The position numbers and the translations under genes are program-made. This document shows, piece by piece, positions 9,069 to 53,559 of a DNA stretch of 64,000 nt (position 1 is its first letter; the number at the start of each line of letters is the position of its first letter). The notes under the pieces are model-generated. The model was not told where the DNA came from and did not search any database. It saw nothing but the letters and a program-made list of their open reading frames with translations. The stretch is from Cyanobacteria bacterium FACHB-63 (GTDB taxonomy: Bacteria > Cyanobacteriota > Cyanobacteriia > Leptolyngbyales > Leptolyngbyaceae): assembly GCA_014695255.1 (NCBI GenBank), contig JACJNX010000040.1:62001-126000 (forward strand), given 5' to 3'.

Positions 9069-10430
9069 ATGGTTGTACCCGCGACGTGCCAGCCGGGAAT
9101 TGCGGCAGGGATGGCAGCTTTACAGATGTTTTACAACACGGGTACGGGCTTGTGGGATACCACAAACTGGTGGAATGCAGCAAACGCACTGGAAGCGACG
9201 ATCGAATACTCGCGCCTAACCGATTCCCTCACGTATCGCGGCAATATTTTCAATACGTTCTATCAGAAGCCGAGATATGCGAATTTCATCAATCCCTGGT
9301 TTCGGGATGATGATGGCTGGTGGGCGATCGCGTGGATTCGAGCTTATGACCTGACCGGCGAACAAAAATATTTAGATCAAGCCAAGTTCATCTTCTGGGA
9401 CATGACCAAAGGCTGGGATAACGTTTGTAACGGCGGATTGTACTGGCACAAGCGCGAGTTAAATTACAAAAACGCAATCACCAATGGATTATTACTTTCG
9501 GTTGCAGCAAAGTTAAATCTACGCGAACCGAATGATAAACGTTATCTGGAATGGTCGCAGAAGATTTGGAAATGGTATCAGCAGAGCGGAGTGATCAATG
9601 CTGAGAATCTAGTGAATGATGGTTTAGATAGCAACTGCCGCAATAATGGGAAAACAATCTGGACATACAATCAAGGTGTTCTGATTGGTGCATTAGTCGA
9701 TTTGTATCGAGGCACAAAAGATCCGGAGTTATTGAAGCAGGCGGAAGCGATCGCAGATGCGTCGATCGTGAAACTTGCTCGAAATGGAATTCTGCGTGAA
9801 CCTTGCGAAGATAACAATGATTGTGGCAATGATGGGCCTCAATTTAAAGGAATTTTTATGCGAAATTTGACGGACTTGTATCGCGTCAGTCCGAAGCCAA
9901 CCTACCGCGAATTCATTACCAGAAATGCAGAGTCAATCTGGGCAAATCGCAATGAGAAAAATCAGTTCGGTTTGAATTGGGCAGGAACGATCGATAAAGC
10001 CGATGCAACCCGACAAACAAGCGCGATCGATGCTCTGAATGCTGCAATCTCCCTTTCGACGACGAGAACCGTTCAAGCTGAGAATTTCGTCGCTACTAGC
10101 GTTCAGCCATCTGTCATCAATCAGGCTGAGAATGATTTGGTGCGGTTTAAGGTGGCGATCGGTTGTTCAGGTCGATATGATTTAGTGTTTCGATACGCAT
10201 CCCCCCAAAGCGCAGTGCGATATGTGTATGTGAATGGTCGAAGTTTGGTCGATCGACAAGCGTTTCCAGCAACAGGCGGATGGAATCAGTGGCAGTCGGT
10301 CAAAATCGAAAATGTCTGGCTAAATGCAGGTGATAATTCCGTTTCAGTCATTTTCAATTCGAGTAAAGGCAGCCAGAATCCTTTGGCGCTGGATGCTTTA
10401 TCGATCGATGTTTCTCGTAGTTTGAAATGA
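9069..10430 (+). CDS. GH76-like glycoside hydrolase with C-terminal CBM6/35-like domain
   Basis: 453 residues. The catalytic part (about 10-330) matches GH76 (alpha-1,6-mannanase-like, alpha/alpha barrel): GLWDTTNWWNAANAL near 27-41, the acidic triplet in FRDDDGWWAIAWI at 80-82, GGLYWHKR and TIWTYNQGVLIGAL. The C-terminal 115 residues (from VQAENF) look like a CBM6/CBM35 beta-sandwich with GGWNQWQSV. Oddly there is no signal peptide: an in-frame TGA lies two codons before the ATG and the family core starts within about 12 residues. Either the enzyme is cytoplasmic or the 5' end has been lost. Its stop overlaps the SGNH hydrolase start (ATGA). Confidence 0.85.
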   Translation: MVVPATCQPGIAAGMAALQMFYNTGTGLWDTTNWWNAANALEATIEYSRLTDSLTYRGNIFNTFYQKPRYANFINPWFRDDDGWWAIAWIRAYDLTGEQKYLDQAKFIFWDMTKGWDNVCNGGLYWHKRELNYKNAITNGLLLSVAAKLNLREPNDKRYLEWSQKIWKWYQQSGVINAENLVNDGLDSNCRNNGKTIWTYNQGVLIGALVDLYRGTKDPELLKQAEAIADASIVKLARNGILREPCEDNNDCGNDGPQFKGIFMRNLTDLYRVSPKPTYREFITRNAESIWANRNEKNQFGLNWAGTIDKADATRQTSAIDALNAAISLSTTRTVQAENFVATSVQPSVINQAENDLVRFKVAIGCSGRYDLVFRYASPQSAVRYVYVNGRSLVDRQAFPATGGWNQWQSVKIENVWLNAGDNSVSVIFNSSKGSQNPLALDALSIDVSRSLK

Positions 10431-11107
10431 ATGTGATTAAAAAAGTGACATATCGCTTGAACCAGATCAAAGCCTTGAGTGTTCACAACTTCGACCTGAT
10501 TCAAGAGCGAATGACTGATTTTGCACAATTGCAGCACTACCAACAAGCTAATGCTGAATTGGTTCCAGATTCCGCTCGCATCATTTTCTTTGGTGATTCC
10601 ATTATTGATTTTTGGAATTTGCAAAATTATTTCCAGAATCAGTCTTATGTTAATCGTGGAATTGCTGGGCAAACGACACCCCAAATGTTGATTCGGTTTC
10701 GTCCAGATGCGATCGCGCTTCGTCCCAAAGCTGTAATTCTTCTCGCTGGAACAAATGATATTGCAGGCAACACAGGCAGCACCACGATCGCTCAAATTCA
10801 GGATAATCTGATGTCGATCGTTGAACTTGCAAAGTACCATCAAATTCGCATGATTTTAGCTTCTTTGCTTCCGGTGAGTGAACTTGTTTCCGTCACTCGT
10901 CCTCGTGCCAAAATTGCAGCGCTCAACGATTGGATTCAGAACTATTGTGCAGAAACTAACTGTGTTTATCTCGATTATCACAGCCATATGGTAGACGATC
11001 GCGGGTTTCTGCAATCTCATCTTTCAGTTGATGGGTTACACCCAAACAACGCAGGATATAAAATCATGACTCCGCTTGCAGAAGCCGCAATCCAAGAGGT
11101 GATATGA
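10427..11107 (+). CDS. SGNH/GDSL-family hydrolase
   Basis: 226 residues. The SGNH blocks are visible: FFGDSIID with nucleophile Ser58, GIAGQTT (Gly of block II), LLAGTNDIAG (Asn of block III) and DGLHPNNAGY with the Asp/His pair near 202-205. Members act as esterases, lipases or carbohydrate O-deacetylases. Coupling to the GH76 gene by an ATGA overlap makes deacylation of a glycan a reasonable guess, but the substrate is not shown. No signal peptide is visible. It also overlaps prmA downstream by four bases, so three dissimilar genes are translationally linked. Confidence 0.9.
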   Translation: MNVIKKVTYRLNQIKALSVHNFDLIQERMTDFAQLQHYQQANAELVPDSARIIFFGDSIIDFWNLQNYFQNQSYVNRGIAGQTTPQMLIRFRPDAIALRPKAVILLAGTNDIAGNTGSTTIAQIQDNLMSIVELAKYHQIRMILASLLPVSELVSVTRPRAKIAALNDWIQNYCAETNCVYLDYHSHMVDDRGFLQSHLSVDGLHPNNAGYKIMTPLAEAAIQEVI

Positions 11108-11997
11108 CGATCGAACTCAGCTTAGATGCCAACCGTGAAGCGATCGACTGGATTCGATCGCTTTTAGCAACCGTTAATTTTGAAGGTAATCTGCAAATTG
11201 AAACGGCTCCTGCACCTTGGGCATTTCATGTCTGCTTTTATTTACCGAATGACGATCGCGCCAAGCTCGAACAAATCGAAACAGCATTGTCATCGCTGCA
11301 TCGCACGGGAATGACAACAGAACTGGAGATGACGATCGTTGAACAAAAATTAGAAGATGCAATTACGACGCACCGAATCGGTAATAAATTTGTGATTGTA
11401 AATGGAAGTTATAAAGAACAGCCGAATGAAATTGCTTTAAACATTGAAGAGAGTTTAGCATTTGGTAGTGGCTTTCATCCAACAACAACTTTATGCTTAA
11501 GATTAATCGAGCGTCATATTACGCCCAACTTAGAGATTTTGGATCTTGGTTGTGGCACTGGAATTTTAAGCGTGGCAATGGCGAAATTAGGCGCACAAGT
11601 TCACGCGATCGATAATGATGCGGTCGCCATTGAAGCAACCGAACGCGCTATTCATCAAAATTCGGTTGATGTTAAAGTCGATCGTGCCAGTCTTGGCAAA
11701 GGCAGTGATTTAGGACATTGGATGGGCGGCGAAGTGCCGGAAACGCTGTCGATCGAACCCGATCAGAACTTCGATTTGATTGTTGCCAATATGTTTGCTC
11801 GAATTCTGATTGATTTGAGCGAAGATTTAAAGGCAGCACTCCAACCGATGGGACGGTTGATCTTATCGGGATTCACAATCGAATACGAAGAAGAATTAAC
11901 TGAAACGCTAACACCATTGGGATTTGAACGAATCGACCGAGAACAACTAGGGGAATGGATCGCGATCGTTTATCAACTTAAGTCCACTCAGAATTAG
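11104..11997 (+). CDS. prmA: Ribosomal protein L11 methyltransferase
   Basis: 297 residues. The N-terminal substrate-recognition domain (about 1-90) is followed by a class I SAM methyltransferase with AFGSGFHPTTTLCL, motif I ILDLGCGTGILSVA and the catalytic-region NMFARILIDL (equivalent to N-x-L in PrmA). It trimethylates ribosomal protein L11 in the cytoplasm. The gene begins with an ATGA overlap at the end of the SGNH hydrolase gene. A 144-base gap follows. Confidence 0.93.
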   Translation: MTIELSLDANREAIDWIRSLLATVNFEGNLQIETAPAPWAFHVCFYLPNDDRAKLEQIETALSSLHRTGMTTELEMTIVEQKLEDAITTHRIGNKFVIVNGSYKEQPNEIALNIEESLAFGSGFHPTTTLCLRLIERHITPNLEILDLGCGTGILSVAMAKLGAQVHAIDNDAVAIEATERAIHQNSVDVKVDRASLGKGSDLGHWMGGEVPETLSIEPDQNFDLIVANMFARILIDLSEDLKAALQPMGRLILSGFTIEYEEELTETLTPLGFERIDREQLGEWIAIVYQLKSTQN

Positions 11998-12141
11998 AAA
12001 TTGTTTTCTATAAGCTTAAAGAATTTTATCCTTTGTAATCTAGGTGACGCTTTAATGGTGCTTAACTTGTTTACGATCTAACGACTACTGCGTCATTTTT
12101 CGCGTTACCTAACATAATACCTGTGTGTTTAAGGATACTGA

Positions 12142-47544: not shown

Positions 47545-48657
47545 ATGAGCATCAATTATCAGATCCTGCTTCTTCTCAGCGCAGGCATTTTGGGATCTTT
47601 CCTGCTGTTCGATCGCTGGTCACGAGGGCGGTCTAATGATCTGCCAGGTAAAAAGACTTTGATCACAGATGATTCTGCCCGTTGCAATAATGAGCTTCTT
47701 GTCAACGAGCCAAAAGGTGAAACCACTGTTGAATTAATCGAAACTGAAGCGCGATCGCAAAAACAGCTTGACTCTGATCAAGGGGCAACCTCAATTTCCG
47801 ATGTTCCTAGCTTTCCGCTAGTTGCCCCCGATCAAGCATCTCCGGAGGTGCAAGCTTGTTTAAGCGAAATTCAAGATACTTTAGAGATTCCTTGGACACC
47901 CGCGAACTGGCGAAGTTATGCAGAGTACCCCAGTGTGATGCAGTTGTTTTGGAAGCGCCTCAAACCTGTGACGCAGACCGAATACTTTTTAGAATCTGCG
48001 ATCGCAATCACCGAGCAGGTCTATCGAGATATCAACGATTGGTATCAACCGAGCTATCAAATCGAAGTGAATGCTAGCGATCGTAGACACATCCAGCGCG
48101 AACTGAATGCGTTTAGTTTCGGCAACCCGCAATTATTGATCCAACAAATTGCCTTGAGTCGCACATTGTCCGGCGAAGTTGTTGGCGAAGATGGCAAAGC
48201 TGATCATCGTCGCGGCGCTCATCCCTATCGTCATCCAGAAATTAAGCTAATTACTGAGCAATCCGCTTCGGCAGAAATACAGCAGGTGTATCGCGACATT
48301 CAGCAGACTTTGGGAGTGTCAATCGTGAACTCCGATTATCAAGCCCTCGCCCAATGGTCTACGTTCTTTACCGCCGCTTGGAAAGATATCAAGCTGTGGC
48401 GCGATCGACCGGAATATCAATTGCTGCGAGAATCAGTTGTGCAGGCTGCAGAGAATGCGGCAAGTCGGCTTCGTCCTGCGGTGTTCGTGGGGGAAGAAGA
48501 AATTCGCGATTTGCTCGACGACCCCGAAGCGATCGATCAAATTCGGCAGAGCGTACAGATGTTTACAGAAATCTTGCCGGATCTGATTATTCAAGATGCG
48601 CTGTTCCACCTTGGTCTCGCGAGTATGCAGCCTGTAAGCTTACCAACCGATAGCTAA
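47545..48657 (+). CDS. Membrane-anchored DehI-family (2-haloacid dehalogenase-like) protein
   Basis: 370 residues. An N-terminal helix (about 5-23) is followed by a polar linker of some 65 residues. The DehI-like part is an internal duplication: FPLVAPDQASPEVQACLSEIQDTLEIP and later IKLITEQSASAEIQQVYRDIQQTLGVS, each followed by W-x(2-3)-Y-A/Q-ALAQWS and FW/AWKDIK. The family is named for non-stereospecific 2-haloacid dehalogenases, but many cyanobacterial members have no shown dehalogenase role. Weakly AhpD-like folds are related. A membrane anchor is unusual for the founding enzymes. Confidence 0.82.
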   Translation: MSINYQILLLLSAGILGSFLLFDRWSRGRSNDLPGKKTLITDDSARCNNELLVNEPKGETTVELIETEARSQKQLDSDQGATSISDVPSFPLVAPDQASPEVQACLSEIQDTLEIPWTPANWRSYAEYPSVMQLFWKRLKPVTQTEYFLESAIAITEQVYRDINDWYQPSYQIEVNASDRRHIQRELNAFSFGNPQLLIQQIALSRTLSGEVVGEDGKADHRRGAHPYRHPEIKLITEQSASAEIQQVYRDIQQTLGVSIVNSDYQALAQWSTFFTAAWKDIKLWRDRPEYQLLRESVVQAAENAASRLRPAVFVGEEEIRDLLDDPEAIDQIRQSVQMFTEILPDLIIQDALFHLGLASMQPVSLPTDS

Positions 48658-49325
48658 GAGATTTTGGAGGCGATCGCGCCTTGATTGCTCACTTGGTCGA
48701 TCGCTGTTCCGACCGTACAAGCTCCGATCAAATTCGCTCCTTTAAGATTTGCGTCTTGGAGATCAGCACAAAGTAAATTTGCGCCTGCTAAGTTTGCGCC
48801 TGCTAAGTTCGCGCCCTGTAAGTCGGCTTCCTCTAAGTTTGCTTCGGTGAGTTGTGCGCCTTGCAGGTCGGCTTGGCACAAGTTTGCTCCGTGCAGGTTC
48901 ACTCCGCTCAGGTTCGCTCCTCGCAGGTCAGCCCCCCGCAAATCAACGCCTTGTAAGCTGACTCCCATTAAATTTGTGCCACTGAGGAATGCACCCGCTA
49001 AGTTGGCACGAGTCAGGCGCGATCGCATCAAGTTTGCACCCCGCAGGTTACTGCCGCGCAGATCCGCCTCGGTTAAATCTGCCTGCATTAAGTTCGCACC
49101 TGTCAAGGTCGCCCGCAAATCTGTGCCAATCAGTTGACATCCGACTAGGTTCGCACCGTCTAGCACCGCACCGGATAGCTTTGCGTCTGTGAAATCTACG
49201 CCAGAGAGCTTTGCGCCTGCAAGATTTGCACCGCTTAATTCAGCTTTCGAGAGATCTTCATCCTGAAGATCTGCACCTGCGAGCTGTTTGATTTTCCCTG
49301 ATCGAATTGCTCCAATGTCCATCAC
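48654..49325 (-). CDS. Pentapeptide repeat protein
   Basis: 223 residues, almost wholly A(D/N)LxX pentapeptides (for example ADLRGANLSGVNLHGANL), about 35 repeats, expected to form a right-handed quadrilateral beta-helix. GTG 49325 overlaps the DICT-HD stop; the ATG at 49322 is an equally good start. No signal peptide, so cytoplasmic. Function unknown; some relatives mimic DNA or act as scaffolds. It ends with a four-base overlap of the convergent DehI-like gene. The DNA repeats make this region look repetitive. Confidence 0.93.
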   Translation of the reverse strand: MMDIGAIRSGKIKQLAGADLQDEDLSKAELSGANLAGAKLSGVDFTDAKLSGAVLDGANLVGCQLIGTDLRATLTGANLMQADLTEADLRGSNLRGANLMRSRLTRANLAGAFLSGTNLMGVSLQGVDLRGADLRGANLSGVNLHGANLCQADLQGAQLTEANLEEADLQGANLAGANLAGANLLCADLQDANLKGANLIGACTVGTAIDQVSNQGAIASKIS

Positions 49326-50716
49326 ACCTGCTCCGTTACTTTGTCGGACAAATCTAACAACTCGTCATCCGAGTGCGAATCCAGAAGCCACATTCCCGCC
49401 GCAATTTTGGGAGTTTGAATCGACAAGCTCAATCCTTGCTGCATGGCACTGACCAAAAGACCCAAAGCTTCAACCAGTTTGATATCCCAGCGATCACCTG
49501 CTTCTGCCTGGCATTGAGCGAGCGCACGGGTTAAAGCCGTCTCAGGATTCGTTGATTGCTCCTGGGTGACTCGCTGCTGAAATTCCGCTAGTAGACCAAG
49601 AATTCTTGATTCTAGGGGAATCTCATCGCCTGCAAGTCCGGCGGGTTGTCCTTGCCCGTTCCAGTATTCGGACTGGTGTGTGACGATCGTGGCAATCGCG
49701 TTCATTCTTCCCATATTCCGCAAAATTTGAGCACCGGGAACGATCGGGCAGCAAGGCGCTTCTTCAGCTTGATGCTCAGAAATTCGTCCAAAACTTCCCG
49801 GGCTTAGAACACTGTCCGCCCGCCTCAGGAATGCCAAGCGGTGAAGCAATGCTGAGAGTCTTAATCGATTCAACTGCCACGCGGGAAGATCGAGCAGTTG
49901 CGCCATCGCCTCACATAAGGTTGCCACTTCAGCCGCTGCATTTGGATTGCTGATATCGGTTTGATCGATCAGTTGAGCCAGTCGCAGAAAGGCTTGAAGC
50001 TCATTGGAAGTCAGATTGTTATCCAATGCCTCGTGCTTTGAGCGCGATCGCAAGTCTTCCTGTCCCGTCTGAAGATAATTCACGACCATCGAAACGGCTT
50101 GATAAATCTCGTCCTGCTCGCTAGTCTGAACAGAAATCTCGGACACTCGCGATCGCAGTTGGTTCGCTAAGTCGGGATTATACCGCTCGATATGAGCGAT
50201 CGCAATGTTGACCGTTTCTTCAACTAACCCCGCCTCGAATGTCCAGAATCCGTAGAACTTGCGCTCTAGATCCTCAGCCGGAATGCCTTGTACGCCGTAA
50301 TCTTCCGGCGTAAGCTCCTGACACAGCACCATCGCAGTATACGAAGGAGCCAGAATCATCAAGTGCCATTCTTGCGCCACCGGGTCAGATTTTTCTAGTT
50401 CAACCAGTGCCACATTCGATCTCTGGCTGGTAGGATGTTCCGCAAAGCCTGTATCCCCAGAAGCCATGATCACAATCTGCTGAGCATGATCGGCGATTTC
50501 ACCGTAGCGATCGGCTTCTGCGAGGTACCATTTTCCTCGTTGGAAGGCAGTCACCACTAGCGGCGCACTAGAGCAACTGAGAATGCAGTCCTCTAGCGCG
50601 TGACAGAGCGAAACAAGAGTGTTTTTGTAGTACACACCAAAATTGAGGGGGCGTTTGCCGATCGCTCCCGGTTGGTGAGCCACTCTGAGATCATCGAGAA
50701 TCGAACCTTCCAGCAT
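49322..50716 (-). CDS. DICT sensory domain protein with degenerate HD-GYP-like domain
   Basis: 464 residues. The N-terminal 150 residues match the DICT sensory domain (FQRGKWYLAEADRYGEIADHA, VIMASGDTGFAEHPTSQRSNV, LILAPSYTAMVLCQE). A linker leads to an HD-like helical domain from about 245: LLHRLAFLRRADSVLSPGSFGRIS and THQSEYWNGQGQPAGLAGDEIPLESRI. The latter resembles the HD-GYP HHExxDGxGYP loop with key residues replaced, so phosphodiesterase activity is doubtful. DICT domains are predicted signal sensors, often with light or c-di-GMP proteins. Between radical SAM and pentapeptide genes in one operon. Confidence 0.85.
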   Translation of the reverse strand: MLEGSILDDLRVAHQPGAIGKRPLNFGVYYKNTLVSLCHALEDCILSCSSAPLVVTAFQRGKWYLAEADRYGEIADHAQQIVIMASGDTGFAEHPTSQRSNVALVELEKSDPVAQEWHLMILAPSYTAMVLCQELTPEDYGVQGIPAEDLERKFYGFWTFEAGLVEETVNIAIAHIERYNPDLANQLRSRVSEISVQTSEQDEIYQAVSMVVNYLQTGQEDLRSRSKHEALDNNLTSNELQAFLRLAQLIDQTDISNPNAAAEVATLCEAMAQLLDLPAWQLNRLRLSALLHRLAFLRRADSVLSPGSFGRISEHQAEEAPCCPIVPGAQILRNMGRMNAIATIVTHQSEYWNGQGQPAGLAGDEIPLESRILGLLAEFQQRVTQEQSTNPETALTRALAQCQAEAGDRWDIKLVEALGLLVSAMQQGLSLSIQTPKIAAGMWLLDSHSDDELLDLSDKVTEQV

Positions 50717-50745
50717 ATGAATGGGAGAATTAAGAAAGCGGGGGA

Positions 50746-52317
50746 TTAAGAGGCAGTAACGAGTTGAGAATTGGGCTTGTCGATCGGCGCGGTTAACGCT
50801 TCTTCAAGGTCGGCGCGTCCGAGTCTTTCTTCTAGAATATCCATAACTTCGCGCCCAAAATCATTGGGATTGCGTTTCCAAGCTTGCAAACACACTTCCC
50901 CAAAGAATGATCCGAGCGGTTCTGGATTCCAGAGCAGTTTTCGGACTGTCCAGGGTTTGACGTTCATTGGGTCGTATCCTGGCTCAAGGATACCGTTTTT
51001 GAAAGCGTACTCTTCTAGATGGGTATGCGGTTGCAGACCGATAAAGAAAATCGCAGGCTCGACTTTATCGGCTCCAAAGATGCGTTCAAGTTCACGATGA
51101 TACGCGATCGTTTGTCGAATCGTCTCCGGTCGCTCATCGATCACGTTAAATGAATAGTTCACTGAAACGAGATCGTTAAATCCAGCAGCCTTGAGATCGC
51201 GACAGTTTTCTAGAACGGTTCTAAGGTTGTAGCCCATTCTCATTTTACGAACGAGTTCTTGCGATCCGCTCGTAATACCGATTTCAAAGTAGTTCATTCC
51301 GGTCTTGACCATCAAATCCGCAAGCTGCGGCGTGAGATTGTCCGCCCGAATGTAAGCTGCCCAGTGAATATCCGTCATGCCTGCATCGACAATTTTTTGC
51401 AGCAGTTCGATCGCATCATCCATGTATTTGCGAGCCGGAATAAACTGAGCATCGGTAAACCAGAAGTTACGAATGCCTTTGTCGTAAAGCTGCTTCATTT
51501 CTTTAACGACTTCATCGGCAGGATTGATTCGCACTTGCTTACCTTCAATCACCGTGTAAACGCAGTAGCAACAGTTGTGCGGACAGCCGCGCTTGGTTTG
51601 CACGCCGATGTAGAAATCCTGAGATTGAAAGTAATATTCAAACTCTTTCCAAATCTGGGCGATGTAATCGTAGTTGCAGGCAGTTTTTTCGATCGGAGTC
51701 GGAAACTCATGAATCATGCGATCGCGGGGTTTCGTCTCCCCGACGATGTAGCAGCGTTCATCGAGAAAATTCTGACCGCGCAGCAGTTTTTCCAGCAGCG
51801 TTTCTCCTTCGCCCACAGAAACGATCGTGCCTTTTGGCAAGGTTTTTGCCACTTGCTCATAAAACACGCTCACAGCACCGCCACCCACAACCACCTTTGC
51901 ATCGGAGTTGTAGCGTTTAGCGCGTTTCACACCGCGCCGAATGAGATTAGAATTGCGCCACAGCTCGCCATAATAGCCCGATGCAATTCGGAGTAAGCCC
52001 AGTGCGCCTCGCGCTTTCAGCAGCGGATTCGAGGCGTAATAGTATTCAAACGTGTATTGAAGCGGGTTGCCTCCACGCCCACCAACCGGCGCGTAAATTT
52101 GAATGTCGCGCCACGAGTACACCAGCAAAGTGGGCTGAAACTCATCAATGCAAGCATCAAGCGCTGAGACATAATCCAAGGGCGGAACCGTGCCTAAATC
52201 AAAAATCCTTTGTGTAATGTTTGGAAACTGATTATGAACATGATCGGCAAGGTAAACCACACCGATCGGAAAAATGGGATTACAAGGCAGTCGAACGTAG
52301 AGAATTCGAGTTTCCAT
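50746..52317 (-). CDS. B12-binding-like radical SAM protein
   Basis: 523 residues. The N-terminal region (about 1-190) resembles the cobalamin-binding Rossmann part of BchE-type radical SAM enzymes (GVVYLADHV, VVVGGGAVSVFYEQVAK, VSVGEGE). The radical SAM core follows with the 4Fe-4S motif RGCPHNCCYC (CxxxCxxC) near 246, FWFTDAQFIP, AYIRADNLTP, and GITSGSQELVRKMRMGYN. The C-terminal 110 residues are specific. The reaction is unknown; cobalamin-dependent methylation or cyclisation is possible. First gene of an operon with DICT-HD (29-base gap) and the pentapeptide protein. Confidence 0.85.
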   Translation of the reverse strand: METRILYVRLPCNPIFPIGVVYLADHVHNQFPNITQRIFDLGTVPPLDYVSALDACIDEFQPTLLVYSWRDIQIYAPVGGRGGNPLQYTFEYYYASNPLLKARGALGLLRIASGYYGELWRNSNLIRRGVKRAKRYNSDAKVVVGGGAVSVFYEQVAKTLPKGTIVSVGEGETLLEKLLRGQNFLDERCYIVGETKPRDRMIHEFPTPIEKTACNYDYIAQIWKEFEYYFQSQDFYIGVQTKRGCPHNCCYCVYTVIEGKQVRINPADEVVKEMKQLYDKGIRNFWFTDAQFIPARKYMDDAIELLQKIVDAGMTDIHWAAYIRADNLTPQLADLMVKTGMNYFEIGITSGSQELVRKMRMGYNLRTVLENCRDLKAAGFNDLVSVNYSFNVIDERPETIRQTIAYHRELERIFGADKVEPAIFFIGLQPHTHLEEYAFKNGILEPGYDPMNVKPWTVRKLLWNPEPLGSFFGEVCLQAWKRNPNDFGREVMDILEERLGRADLEEALTAPIDKPNSQLVTAS

Positions 52318-52677
52318 AGCATTTTACTCACAGTCGCCCGATGCAAAATCCCGCATCGAGATTCTGAATTTATTTCACATAACTTTACGATATCACTCAC
52401 TTCACTTCTCTGCATGAAGATCACCAGTTTTATATTCGCGAGTGCAGCGCTCAACTGAAATTAATTTTCCGAATTAAATTTTAGATCTATTTTTACCGTA
52501 TTCAGTATTCAAATATTAAGCAGGTTTAACTCTTTATCGATCGCTTGATATGGCTCAATTTCAACGCACAAATCGTCTTAAAAAGCAACATTGGTAATCG
52601 CCTTTACAGTTGCCAGGGATCGCCCAGTGTTAGTGTTCAAATACAGCCTGTTATTTAGCGTAGGATCTTCAACTGCC
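52318..52677. other. Divergent intergenic region
   Basis: 360 bases between the radical SAM gene and the DUF1830 gene. The frame upstream of the DUF1830 ATG stays open but is not family-like. No promoter boxes or RNA could be assigned with confidence. Confidence 0.5.
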
Positions 52678-52995
52678 ATGCCTCAAACTCTTGATCCTCT
52701 ACCCTTGGGTGGATCTGATCCCATCCTGTGTTGTTATGTGAATGCAACGAGCCAAATTCAAATTGCTCGGATTACAAATGTGCCGAATTGGTATTTTGAG
52801 CGTGTAGTTTTTCCGGGGCAACGGTTGCTTTTTGAAGCGATGGCTAACGCTCAACTTGAAATTCATACGGGAATGATGGCAAGTGCGATCTTGTCGGACA
52901 CTATTCCCTGCTCAAGCTTGATGGTGAGCGAGGAGGGCGAAGACGAACCGTTTCCCAAAACTCTAGGATTAGCGATGGCTTCAACAGACTCATAA
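52678..52995 (+). CDS. DUF1830 domain-containing protein
   Basis: 105 residues from ATG 52678 (MPQTLDPLP); an upstream extension is rejected. It shows the DUF1830 core ILCCYVNATSQIQIARITN, then PNWYFERVVFPGQRLLFEA and LEIHTG. The family is a small cyanobacterial protein of unknown function. Cytoplasmic. A terminator follows 85 bases after the stop. Confidence 0.9.
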   Translation: MPQTLDPLPLGGSDPILCCYVNATSQIQIARITNVPNWYFERVVFPGQRLLFEAMANAQLEIHTGMMASAILSDTIPCSSLMVSEEGEDEPFPKTLGLAMASTDS

Positions 52996-53121: not shown

Positions 53122-53559
53122 ATGAAGAAGACAAATTCGGTGAAGGCTTTGAATTTACCTTCTTTTATTTGGCTGTGGCGGATTGCAGCTTGGGCGATGG
53201 GTCTAACGATCGCGGCATATCTGATTCAAGTCGCGACTGGATCAGATATGCTGTTTGGGGCGAAACGGCTGCGATCGCTGCATATCGGTGTGGGGATTGC
53301 GATCGCGGTTCTTGTTCTCGTTTTACTTGGCATTGGAATTGTCGGAACGCTAGGGCATTACGGCAGTTTGGGGCATTCTAACCATCTTTGGTCAGGGCTA
53401 GCAGTGGTAGAACTCATATTTCTCTCCGCTTGGAGTGCAGTGCAGATTCCAAGCCAGCCTTGGGCGCGATCGGTGCATGTAGGCGTAAACTTCTTGCTGT
53501 GTTTGAGCCTCGTCTGGGTATCGATTACGGGTTGGCAGGTGGTGCAGAAATATCTCTAA
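53122..53559 (+). CDS. DUF4079-like four-helix membrane protein
   Basis: 145 residues. Four membrane helices (about 15-35, 48-72, 85-103, 115-140) with histidines near helix starts or ends: RSLHIGVG, LGHYGSLGHSNHLWSGL and VHVGVN. This arrangement resembles DUF4079 and cytochrome-b-like membrane proteins, so heme binding is possible but not shown. The start lies only six bases after a terminator. Its 3' end overlaps the convergent nadB gene by 35 bases. Confidence 0.7.
   Translation: MKKTNSVKALNLPSFIWLWRIAAWAMGLTIAAYLIQVATGSDMLFGAKRLRSLHIGVGIAIAVLVLVLLGIGIVGTLGHYGSLGHSNHLWSGLAVVELIFLSAWSAVQIPSQPWARSVHVGVNFLLCLSLVWVSITGWQVVQKYL

Follow-up and report, generated by a model that had tools for sequence, protein, structure and literature searches.

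A conserved cyanobacterial gene trio encodes a Slr0320-family radical SAM enzyme, a DICT-HD pseudoenzyme and a pentapeptide-repeat protein

Results

A three-gene run encodes a radical SAM enzyme, a DICT-HD protein and a pentapeptide-repeat protein

The stretch of DNA analyzed here (the window) comprises 64,000 nucleotides of the genome of Cyanobacteria bacterium FACHB-63 (GCA_014695255.1, contig JACJNX010000040.1, positions 62,001 to 126,000) and contains a compact run of three genes. They encode a predicted B12-type radical SAM enzyme (rSAM), a two-domain protein with a DICT domain followed by an HD-GYP-like domain (DICT-HD) and a pentapeptide-repeat protein (Table 1). An earlier reading made from the letters alone (the sequence-only reading) had proposed an operon of three such genes at positions 48654-52317, and all three open reading frames are found there, on the minus strand and tightly spaced. 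The gene order is rSAM, a 29-nucleotide gap, DICT-HD and the pentapeptide gene, with the DICT-HD stop and the pentapeptide start overlapping by 1-4 nucleotides (gTGATG, or GTGA if a GTG start is used). We propose that the trio is one transcription unit of two parts, a Slr0320-type enzyme and a DICT-HD/pentapeptide pair.

Table 1. Features of the trio and its conserved surroundings, in window coordinates
Feature	Position	Strand	Length	Basis and remarks
rSAM (predicted B12-type radical SAM, Slr0320 family)	50746..52317	-	523 residues	Open reading frame, family profiles, model fold
DICT-HD	49322..50716	-	464 residues	DICT and CHASE6_C at about 22-222; HD-GYP-like at about 231-446, without metal ligands
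Pentapeptide-repeat protein	48654..49325	-	222-223 residues	Start overlaps DICT-HD stop
Upstream element TGnTATCGTAAAGTTATATGAA of the rSAM gene (candidate)	52374..52395	-		1 mismatch in the window; 57 bp 5' of the start codon
DUF1830 protein	52591..52995	+		Divergent from rSAM; conserved neighbor outside the run
DUF4079 protein	53122..53559	+		Adjoins DUF1830; weaker conserved neighbor (38/65 and 30/61 loci, two sets)

The linkage is conserved across cyanobacterial families

To place the trio in context, we used a sample of 242 Cyanobacteriia genomes, 235 of which contain some rSAM match and 182 some DICT-HD match. Genomic places were listed for rSAM in 150 genomes and for DICT-HD in 137. Linkage was counted on the 110 genomes with both places listed, the window's own genome among them, and 27 genomes with DICT-HD and no listed rSAM place were set aside. 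DICT-HD is located within 1.5 kb of rSAM in 73 of the 110 genomes, corresponding to 47 of 71 genera and 15 of 22 families, and within 12 kb in 76, in all of which it lies downstream of rSAM on the same strand. The pentapeptide gene is found 3' of DICT-HD, on the same strand and within 600 bp, at 68/71 linked loci, 33/34 unlinked loci and 73/77 named loci of a third set, made up of related loci. The third set has genomes in common with the linked and unlinked sets and is not independent of them, and each neighbor count covers the loci with enough flanking sequence. Among the 76 linked loci one (L127) has no DICT-HD frame and three have a short frame, while seven loci show no pentapeptide match in the fetched stretch (L129, L140, which is a short contig, L143, L153, L232, L233 and L256). 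As controls, we counted two genes that also lie near the trio in the window. NadB is found near DICT-HD at 7/64, 0/31 and 4/58 loci of the three sets and DehI at 1/68, 0/32 and 0/66, the first set including the window's own locus, which has both. The sequence-only reading had described the trio as tightly linked and had suggested checking its conservation across cyanobacteria; the linkage is indeed kept in the 15 families mentioned, beyond chance as judged by the two controls, and the contrary outcome of no conserved linkage in other genomes did not occur. The linkage is real and old, and the trio is a conserved module.

DICT-HD and the pentapeptide protein are a co-inherited pair

The pentapeptide-repeat protein matches the Pfam repeat family with 191.7 bits and the Alr5209-type family NF052603 with 146.1 bits (cut-off 125), the latter over four stretches of a 113-position repeat model, so that the score is inflated by repeats and says little on orthology. 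The protein shares its repeat type with HetL, Alr5209 and Qnr. It differs from HetL and Qnr in scoring far under their cut-offs (122.9 bits against 260 and 70 bits against 240, respectively) and in having DICT-HD as its conserved partner. At the linked loci listed, the neighboring pentapeptide protein is 60-98% identical to that of the window; at the 14 most divergent unlinked loci (L167-L180) identity is 45-56%, and the evidence there is position, not identity. The best pentapeptide match in the 40 genomes that have rSAM and no listed DICT-HD reaches 116.4 bits and 49% identity, and the nearest paralogue within the window's own genome reaches 123.9 bits and 45% identity. Because all 40 genomes without a listed DICT-HD show only such paralogue-level matches, DICT-HD and the pentapeptide protein are a co-inherited pair. 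A DICT-HD profile search of 40 genomes, 34 of them without a listed DICT-HD, returned 25 matches in 17 genomes, each covering one half of the protein and none covering both. In the window's genome, 47 pentapeptide matches have E values of 1e-10 or lower.

An apparent fusion of DICT-HD and the pentapeptide protein in a 699-residue frame (L185, positions 9998-12094 of a contig from a metagenome-assembled genome) reads as frame-shifted at the joint when inspected by eye, an indel being the likelier explanation. It was not used as evidence of contact and, although one of the 77 named loci, is not among the 73 counted. Searches of openly licensed PMC papers turned up none that deals with the trio or with DICT-HD and the pentapeptide protein as a pair, and the sensor pair appears little studied, the enzyme being from a known family.

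rSAM belongs to the nearly universal Slr0320 family

rSAM matches the curated equivalog profile NF045585 (rSAM_slr0320) with 1058.4 bits (cut-off 775) over positions 2-511 of 511 and the Pfam Radical_SAM family with 73.9 bits. Its CxxxCxxC motif (C245/C249/C252) is invariant in all 43 aligned relatives (43 of 50 sequences), across which mean column identity is 84%. The family is found above cut-off in 223 of the 242 genomes, by a below-cut-off match only in 12 and not at all in 7. Judged by these profile matches, rSAM is a member of the Slr0320 family, which is nearly universal in cyanobacteria. Three genomes (G047, G080 and G090) with only weak matches to the family (E 7e-5 to 4e-4) carry the same genus label as three that keep it (G016, G034 and G060), which suggests natural loss.

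The structure model of rSAM resembles the cobalamin radical SAM enzymes TsrM (Z 20.7, 388 aligned residues, 3.8 Å), OxsB, CysS, MgmA and TokK, and also AprD4. By sequence, its best solved relatives are 9ccb (MgmA, E 4.5e-13) and 6fd2 (AprD4, 2e-11). Residues 1-183 of the model align with a stretch of methylmalonyl-CoA mutase (Z 9.4), which we take to be the B12 domain of that enzyme. rSAM is a putative B12-type radical SAM enzyme.

According to PMC8065906, the Synechocystis slr0320 mutant grows poorly under high light and shows slow QA-to-QB transfer with photosystem II amounts like those of the wild type, and its photosystem II activity is not lower when a quinone acceptor is added. The sequence-only reading had spoken of a radical SAM enzyme of unknown reaction. 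This holds for the reaction; a role is indicated by the family assignment and the photosystem II high-light phenotype (PMC8065906). The window's enzyme is like Slr0320 in scoring over the full length of the NF045585 profile. The difference is that its gene opens a run that continues with DICT-HD and a pentapeptide gene, partners that the accessible portion of PMC8065906 does not mention.

The HD-GYP-like half of DICT-HD has lost its metal ligands

DICT-HD matches the Pfam families DICT (PF10069, 136.4 bits, gathering cut-off 23.8), CHASE6_C (82.1 bits) and HD_5 (79.5 bits), and the DICT domain is present at E 0.01 or better in 63 of 63 aligned relatives (63 of 81 sequences). In the structure model (mean predicted local distance difference test score, pLDDT, 82.4), the HD half aligns with four HD-GYP proteins at Z 17-18, namely V-cGAP3 (Z 18.2, 182 residues, 4.1 Å), DvhD bound to cyclic di-GMP (c-di-GMP; Z 18.0, 181 residues, 4.7 Å), PmGH and PA4781. 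DICT-HD shares with these phosphodiesterases the fold and the WxGxGxP loop, which is kept in all of the 160 distinct DICT-HD proteins used for residue counts. It departs from them in the metal ligands. The HD aspartate position (D293) is never Asp (0/160) and is Arg in 149, while the HD histidine (H292) is kept in 145. The first loop His of the HHExxDGxGYP motif is present in 159 proteins and the second is kept in only 6 and absent in 154. A His near the middle metal-ligand place is found in 4, so that it is missing in at least 156, in a poorly aligned stretch. No protein contains both the HD and the HH motif (0/160). Neither the HD ligands nor the HHExxDGxGYP signature of active HD-GYP phosphodiesterases is therefore found in DICT-HD, and the profile of the NosR-type c-di-GMP response regulator (NF053512) scores 102.2 bits against a cut-off of 400, over the HD half only. 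The sequence-only reading had called this domain degenerate, and the residue counts bear this out: DICT-HD is, on its conserved residues, a pseudo-HD-GYP protein and a pseudoenzyme. With the metal ligands lost, hydrolysis of c-di-GMP is unlikely.

Microcystis DICT-HD-GYP proteins have the same domain order and similar key residues (YR-GVP, the Asp again replaced by Arg), and PMC7063779 classes them as c-di-GMP phosphodiesterases while doubting their activity; we liken them to DICT-HD by domain order and residues. For the widespread DICT-HD protein described here, metal-dependent c-di-GMP phosphodiesterase activity, under which these like-built proteins were filed, is very unlikely.

A rival reading takes DICT-HD to be a cyclic-dinucleotide receptor, in which the dead HD-GYP half would bind c-di-GMP or cyclic GMP-AMP (cGAMP) uncut and signal by way of the pentapeptide protein and rSAM. 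The alignment of the HD half with V-cGAP3 and c-di-GMP-bound DvhD and the invariant WxGxGxP loop are in line with this idea, while the HD Asp is never kept, the other metal positions are mostly lost and several residues occur at the GYP loop tip (Q in 68, E in 20 and Y in 19 of 160). Since metal positions are lost and the loop tip is variable, a selected dinucleotide pocket is not evident, and we consider such a receptor improbable. The suggestion of a nucleotide-responsive system is weakened as regards c-di-GMP turnover, since the relatives examined lack the HD metal ligands; binding may still occur.

The DICT half is modeled as a degenerate phospholipase-D-like fold

Residues 22-182 of the DICT-HD model align with NucT (Z 10.3, 133 residues, 3.2 Å), TrmBL2 (Z 10.1, 133 residues, 3.8 Å) and the TrmB sugar-binding domain (Z 9.9, 131 residues, 3.3 Å). 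Further matches are FAM83B (Z 9.1), Zucchini (Z 9.0), Nuc (Z 8.8) and polyphosphate kinase. These values were obtained from the full-length model, with pLDDT mostly >80 in this region, and come with 4-12% identity (6-9% for TrmB and FAM83B); they are consistent across entries and lie above the best Z of 7-8 that is typical for models without a clear match. All listed matches that fall inside about residues 20-195 belong to the phospholipase D superfamily or are degenerate relatives of it, TrmB, TrmBL2 and FAM83 being of the degenerate kind. The HxKxxxxD motif of active phospholipase D enzymes is not found in the 160 DICT-HD proteins in a by-eye alignment: H118, present in 150, could be its His, position 120, where the Lys would stand, is occupied by I, M or V in 154, and an Asp at position 125, its expected place, occurs in 26. 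The DICT half therefore probably adopts a degenerate phospholipase-D-like fold of the kind seen in TrmB, a sugar sensor, in TrmBL2 and in FAM83, with which it aligns at Z of about 9-10. A probable fold for the DICT domain makes its ligand testable.

Two adjacent residues of this half, Cys38 and His39, are invariant in 160 of 160 DICT-HD proteins, and the same place in eight other DICT proteins, aligned by eye, is Ser-His in six, Ser-Arg in one and neither in one. In the GAF photosensors of cyanobacteria, bilins are anchored by a Cys-His pair. DICT-HD could be a light or redox sensor, with Cys38-His39 either binding a bilin or responding to redox changes, and the DICT domain is said, in PMC8612252, to be predicted in light response. 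The domain is modeled as a phospholipase-D-like fold and not as GAF, and we regard a light or redox sensor as very unlikely.

A conserved element precedes the rSAM gene

A 22-bp element, TGnTATCGTAAAGTTATATGAA, is found at 17 or more of 21 matching positions in 84 of 98 distinct 300-bp regions before rSAM (98 distinct among 119 upstream regions), the consensus having been derived from the same regions; 490 mononucleotide shuffles reach at most 15/21. It also precedes 27 of 34 rSAM genes unlinked from DICT-HD, which were not used to derive the consensus. The element lies about 35-320 bp 5' of the approximate start codon, a variable distance, and is conserved across families. In the window's own genome its 18-base core occurs exactly once, the next site carrying 2 mismatches, and within 3 mismatches there are four sites versus 12 for the reversed pattern. 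Before the unlinked DICT-HD genes the element is found in 0 of 34 cases at the same threshold. A shared rSAM/DICT-HD regulon was rejected on these grounds, and because the element is absent before unlinked DICT-HD and its core has a single exact copy, it looks gene-specific and is a candidate control site or promoter of rSAM. Within it, TGnTATCGT resembles an extended -10 in which the bases that come after are conserved to an unusual degree.

Among the 40 genomes with rSAM and no listed DICT-HD only one (G175) carries the element before rSAM. Dependence of the element on DICT-HD (27/34 versus 1/40) was considered and dropped; the sole carrier belongs to the window's family, and lineage explains the pattern equally well. 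The best sites of 17 of these 40 share a shorter core, TTAAGATATGTAAA. The HLR1 consensus of RpaB is TTACAAn4TTACAA-like; in this form it is found at 10 or more of 12 positions in 5 of 98 regions before rSAM compared to 4.7% in shuffles, and 54 times in the window against 55 expected, so that plain HLR1 is not enriched. An HLR1 site, TTAAGATATATTACAA, is listed at -78 of slr0320 in PMC6331805, and by eye it resembles the TTAAGATATGTAAA core.

Discussion

The trio may couple a ligand-sensing pair to a step at photosystem II

With moderate confidence, we propose that DICT-HD and the pentapeptide protein form a ligand-sensing, non-catalytic regulatory pair that serves a B12-type radical SAM step at photosystem II. 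The DICT half would bind a small ligand, by analogy with the similarly folded TrmB domain that binds sugars, and the dead HD-GYP half would act as the output surface. The pentapeptide helix would be the protein partner of DICT-HD, and the pair would tune either the rSAM enzyme or the target of that enzyme at photosystem II according to the metabolic or redox state.

Several observations weigh against this proposal. Promoter and terminator scans are at chance level. The rSAM structure model is mediocre (mean pLDDT 71.5), and the Pfam B12-binding match of rSAM reaches only 28.2 bits, under the cut-off of 32.1, and covers profile positions 66-120 of 121. rSAM and DICT-HD are not within 12 kb of each other in 34 of the 110 genomes with both listed, lying on one contig and more than 300 kb apart in 12 and on different contigs in 22. 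DICT-HD is not listed in 40 of the 150 genomes for which an rSAM place is, so the enzyme does not need the pair; DICT-HD in turn occurs in genomes whose rSAM match is weak or missing altogether (G012, G057, G077, G153, G158 and G195), so the pair does not need the enzyme. As each part occurs without the other, coupling would be helpful and not obligatory.

The same distribution speaks for a rival in which the pair regulates something else and sits 3' of rSAM merely to share its promoter: the pair lies away from rSAM in those 34 genomes, there without the rSAM element, and is present in genomes lacking a strong rSAM match. What argues against such mere promoter sharing, which we judge somewhat unlikely, is that rSAM and DICT-HD have stayed adjacent in 15 of 22 families, whereas NadB and DehI have mostly not stayed near. 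The regulatory pair proposed above can also be cast more boldly, as a new control unit in which a ligand sensor of degenerate phospholipase-D fold, a dead HD-GYP output and a beta-helix adaptor gate a B12-dependent radical SAM modification that the acceptor side of photosystem II requires, perhaps together with the divergent DUF1830 protein; this version is speculative and, for now, unlikely to hold in full.

Nearly all cyanobacteria have a Slr0320-family enzyme, a mutant phenotype ties the family to photosystem II, and a conserved partner pair represents a handle on both the control and the substrate of its step. New in this analysis are the pseudo-HD-GYP status of DICT-HD, the modeled DICT fold, the co-inheritance of the pair and the apparently gene-specific 22-bp element of rSAM.

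Neighboring genes

DUF1830 lies upstream of rSAM on the opposite strand at 55 of 67 linked loci. Of the 34 genomes with DICT-HD elsewhere, 28 likewise have it beside rSAM and opposite to it, as do 23 of 40 without a listed DICT-HD. Since this pairing also exists without linked DICT-HD, DUF1830 and rSAM can be seen as the old core of the locus, from which DICT-HD and the pentapeptide protein are separable as a pair, and the divergent pairing may be informative in itself. As described in PMC13205821, the DUF1830 proteins PirC/CfrA and PirN act in the control of carbon, nitrogen and photosynthesis, with PirN binding PsbO, and Sll0944 (DUF1830) is a reported or candidate PII partner (PMC6603209 and PMC7344720). 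Assignment of the neighbor as PirC or PirN was attempted and abandoned, there being four full-length DUF1830 matches in the window's own genome. The DUF1830 search gave no match in 14 control genomes including Synechococcus elongatus, although PMC7344720 names a DUF1830 protein, _0891, there.

The run is bordered on its 3' side by a DehI-domain gene on the opposite strand, with an overlap of 4 nucleotides between this gene and the pentapeptide gene's end. On the 5' side, DUF1830 and DUF4079 diverge from rSAM and are followed on the minus strand by nadB and psbU, the latter named from a reading of its product and not by family profile.

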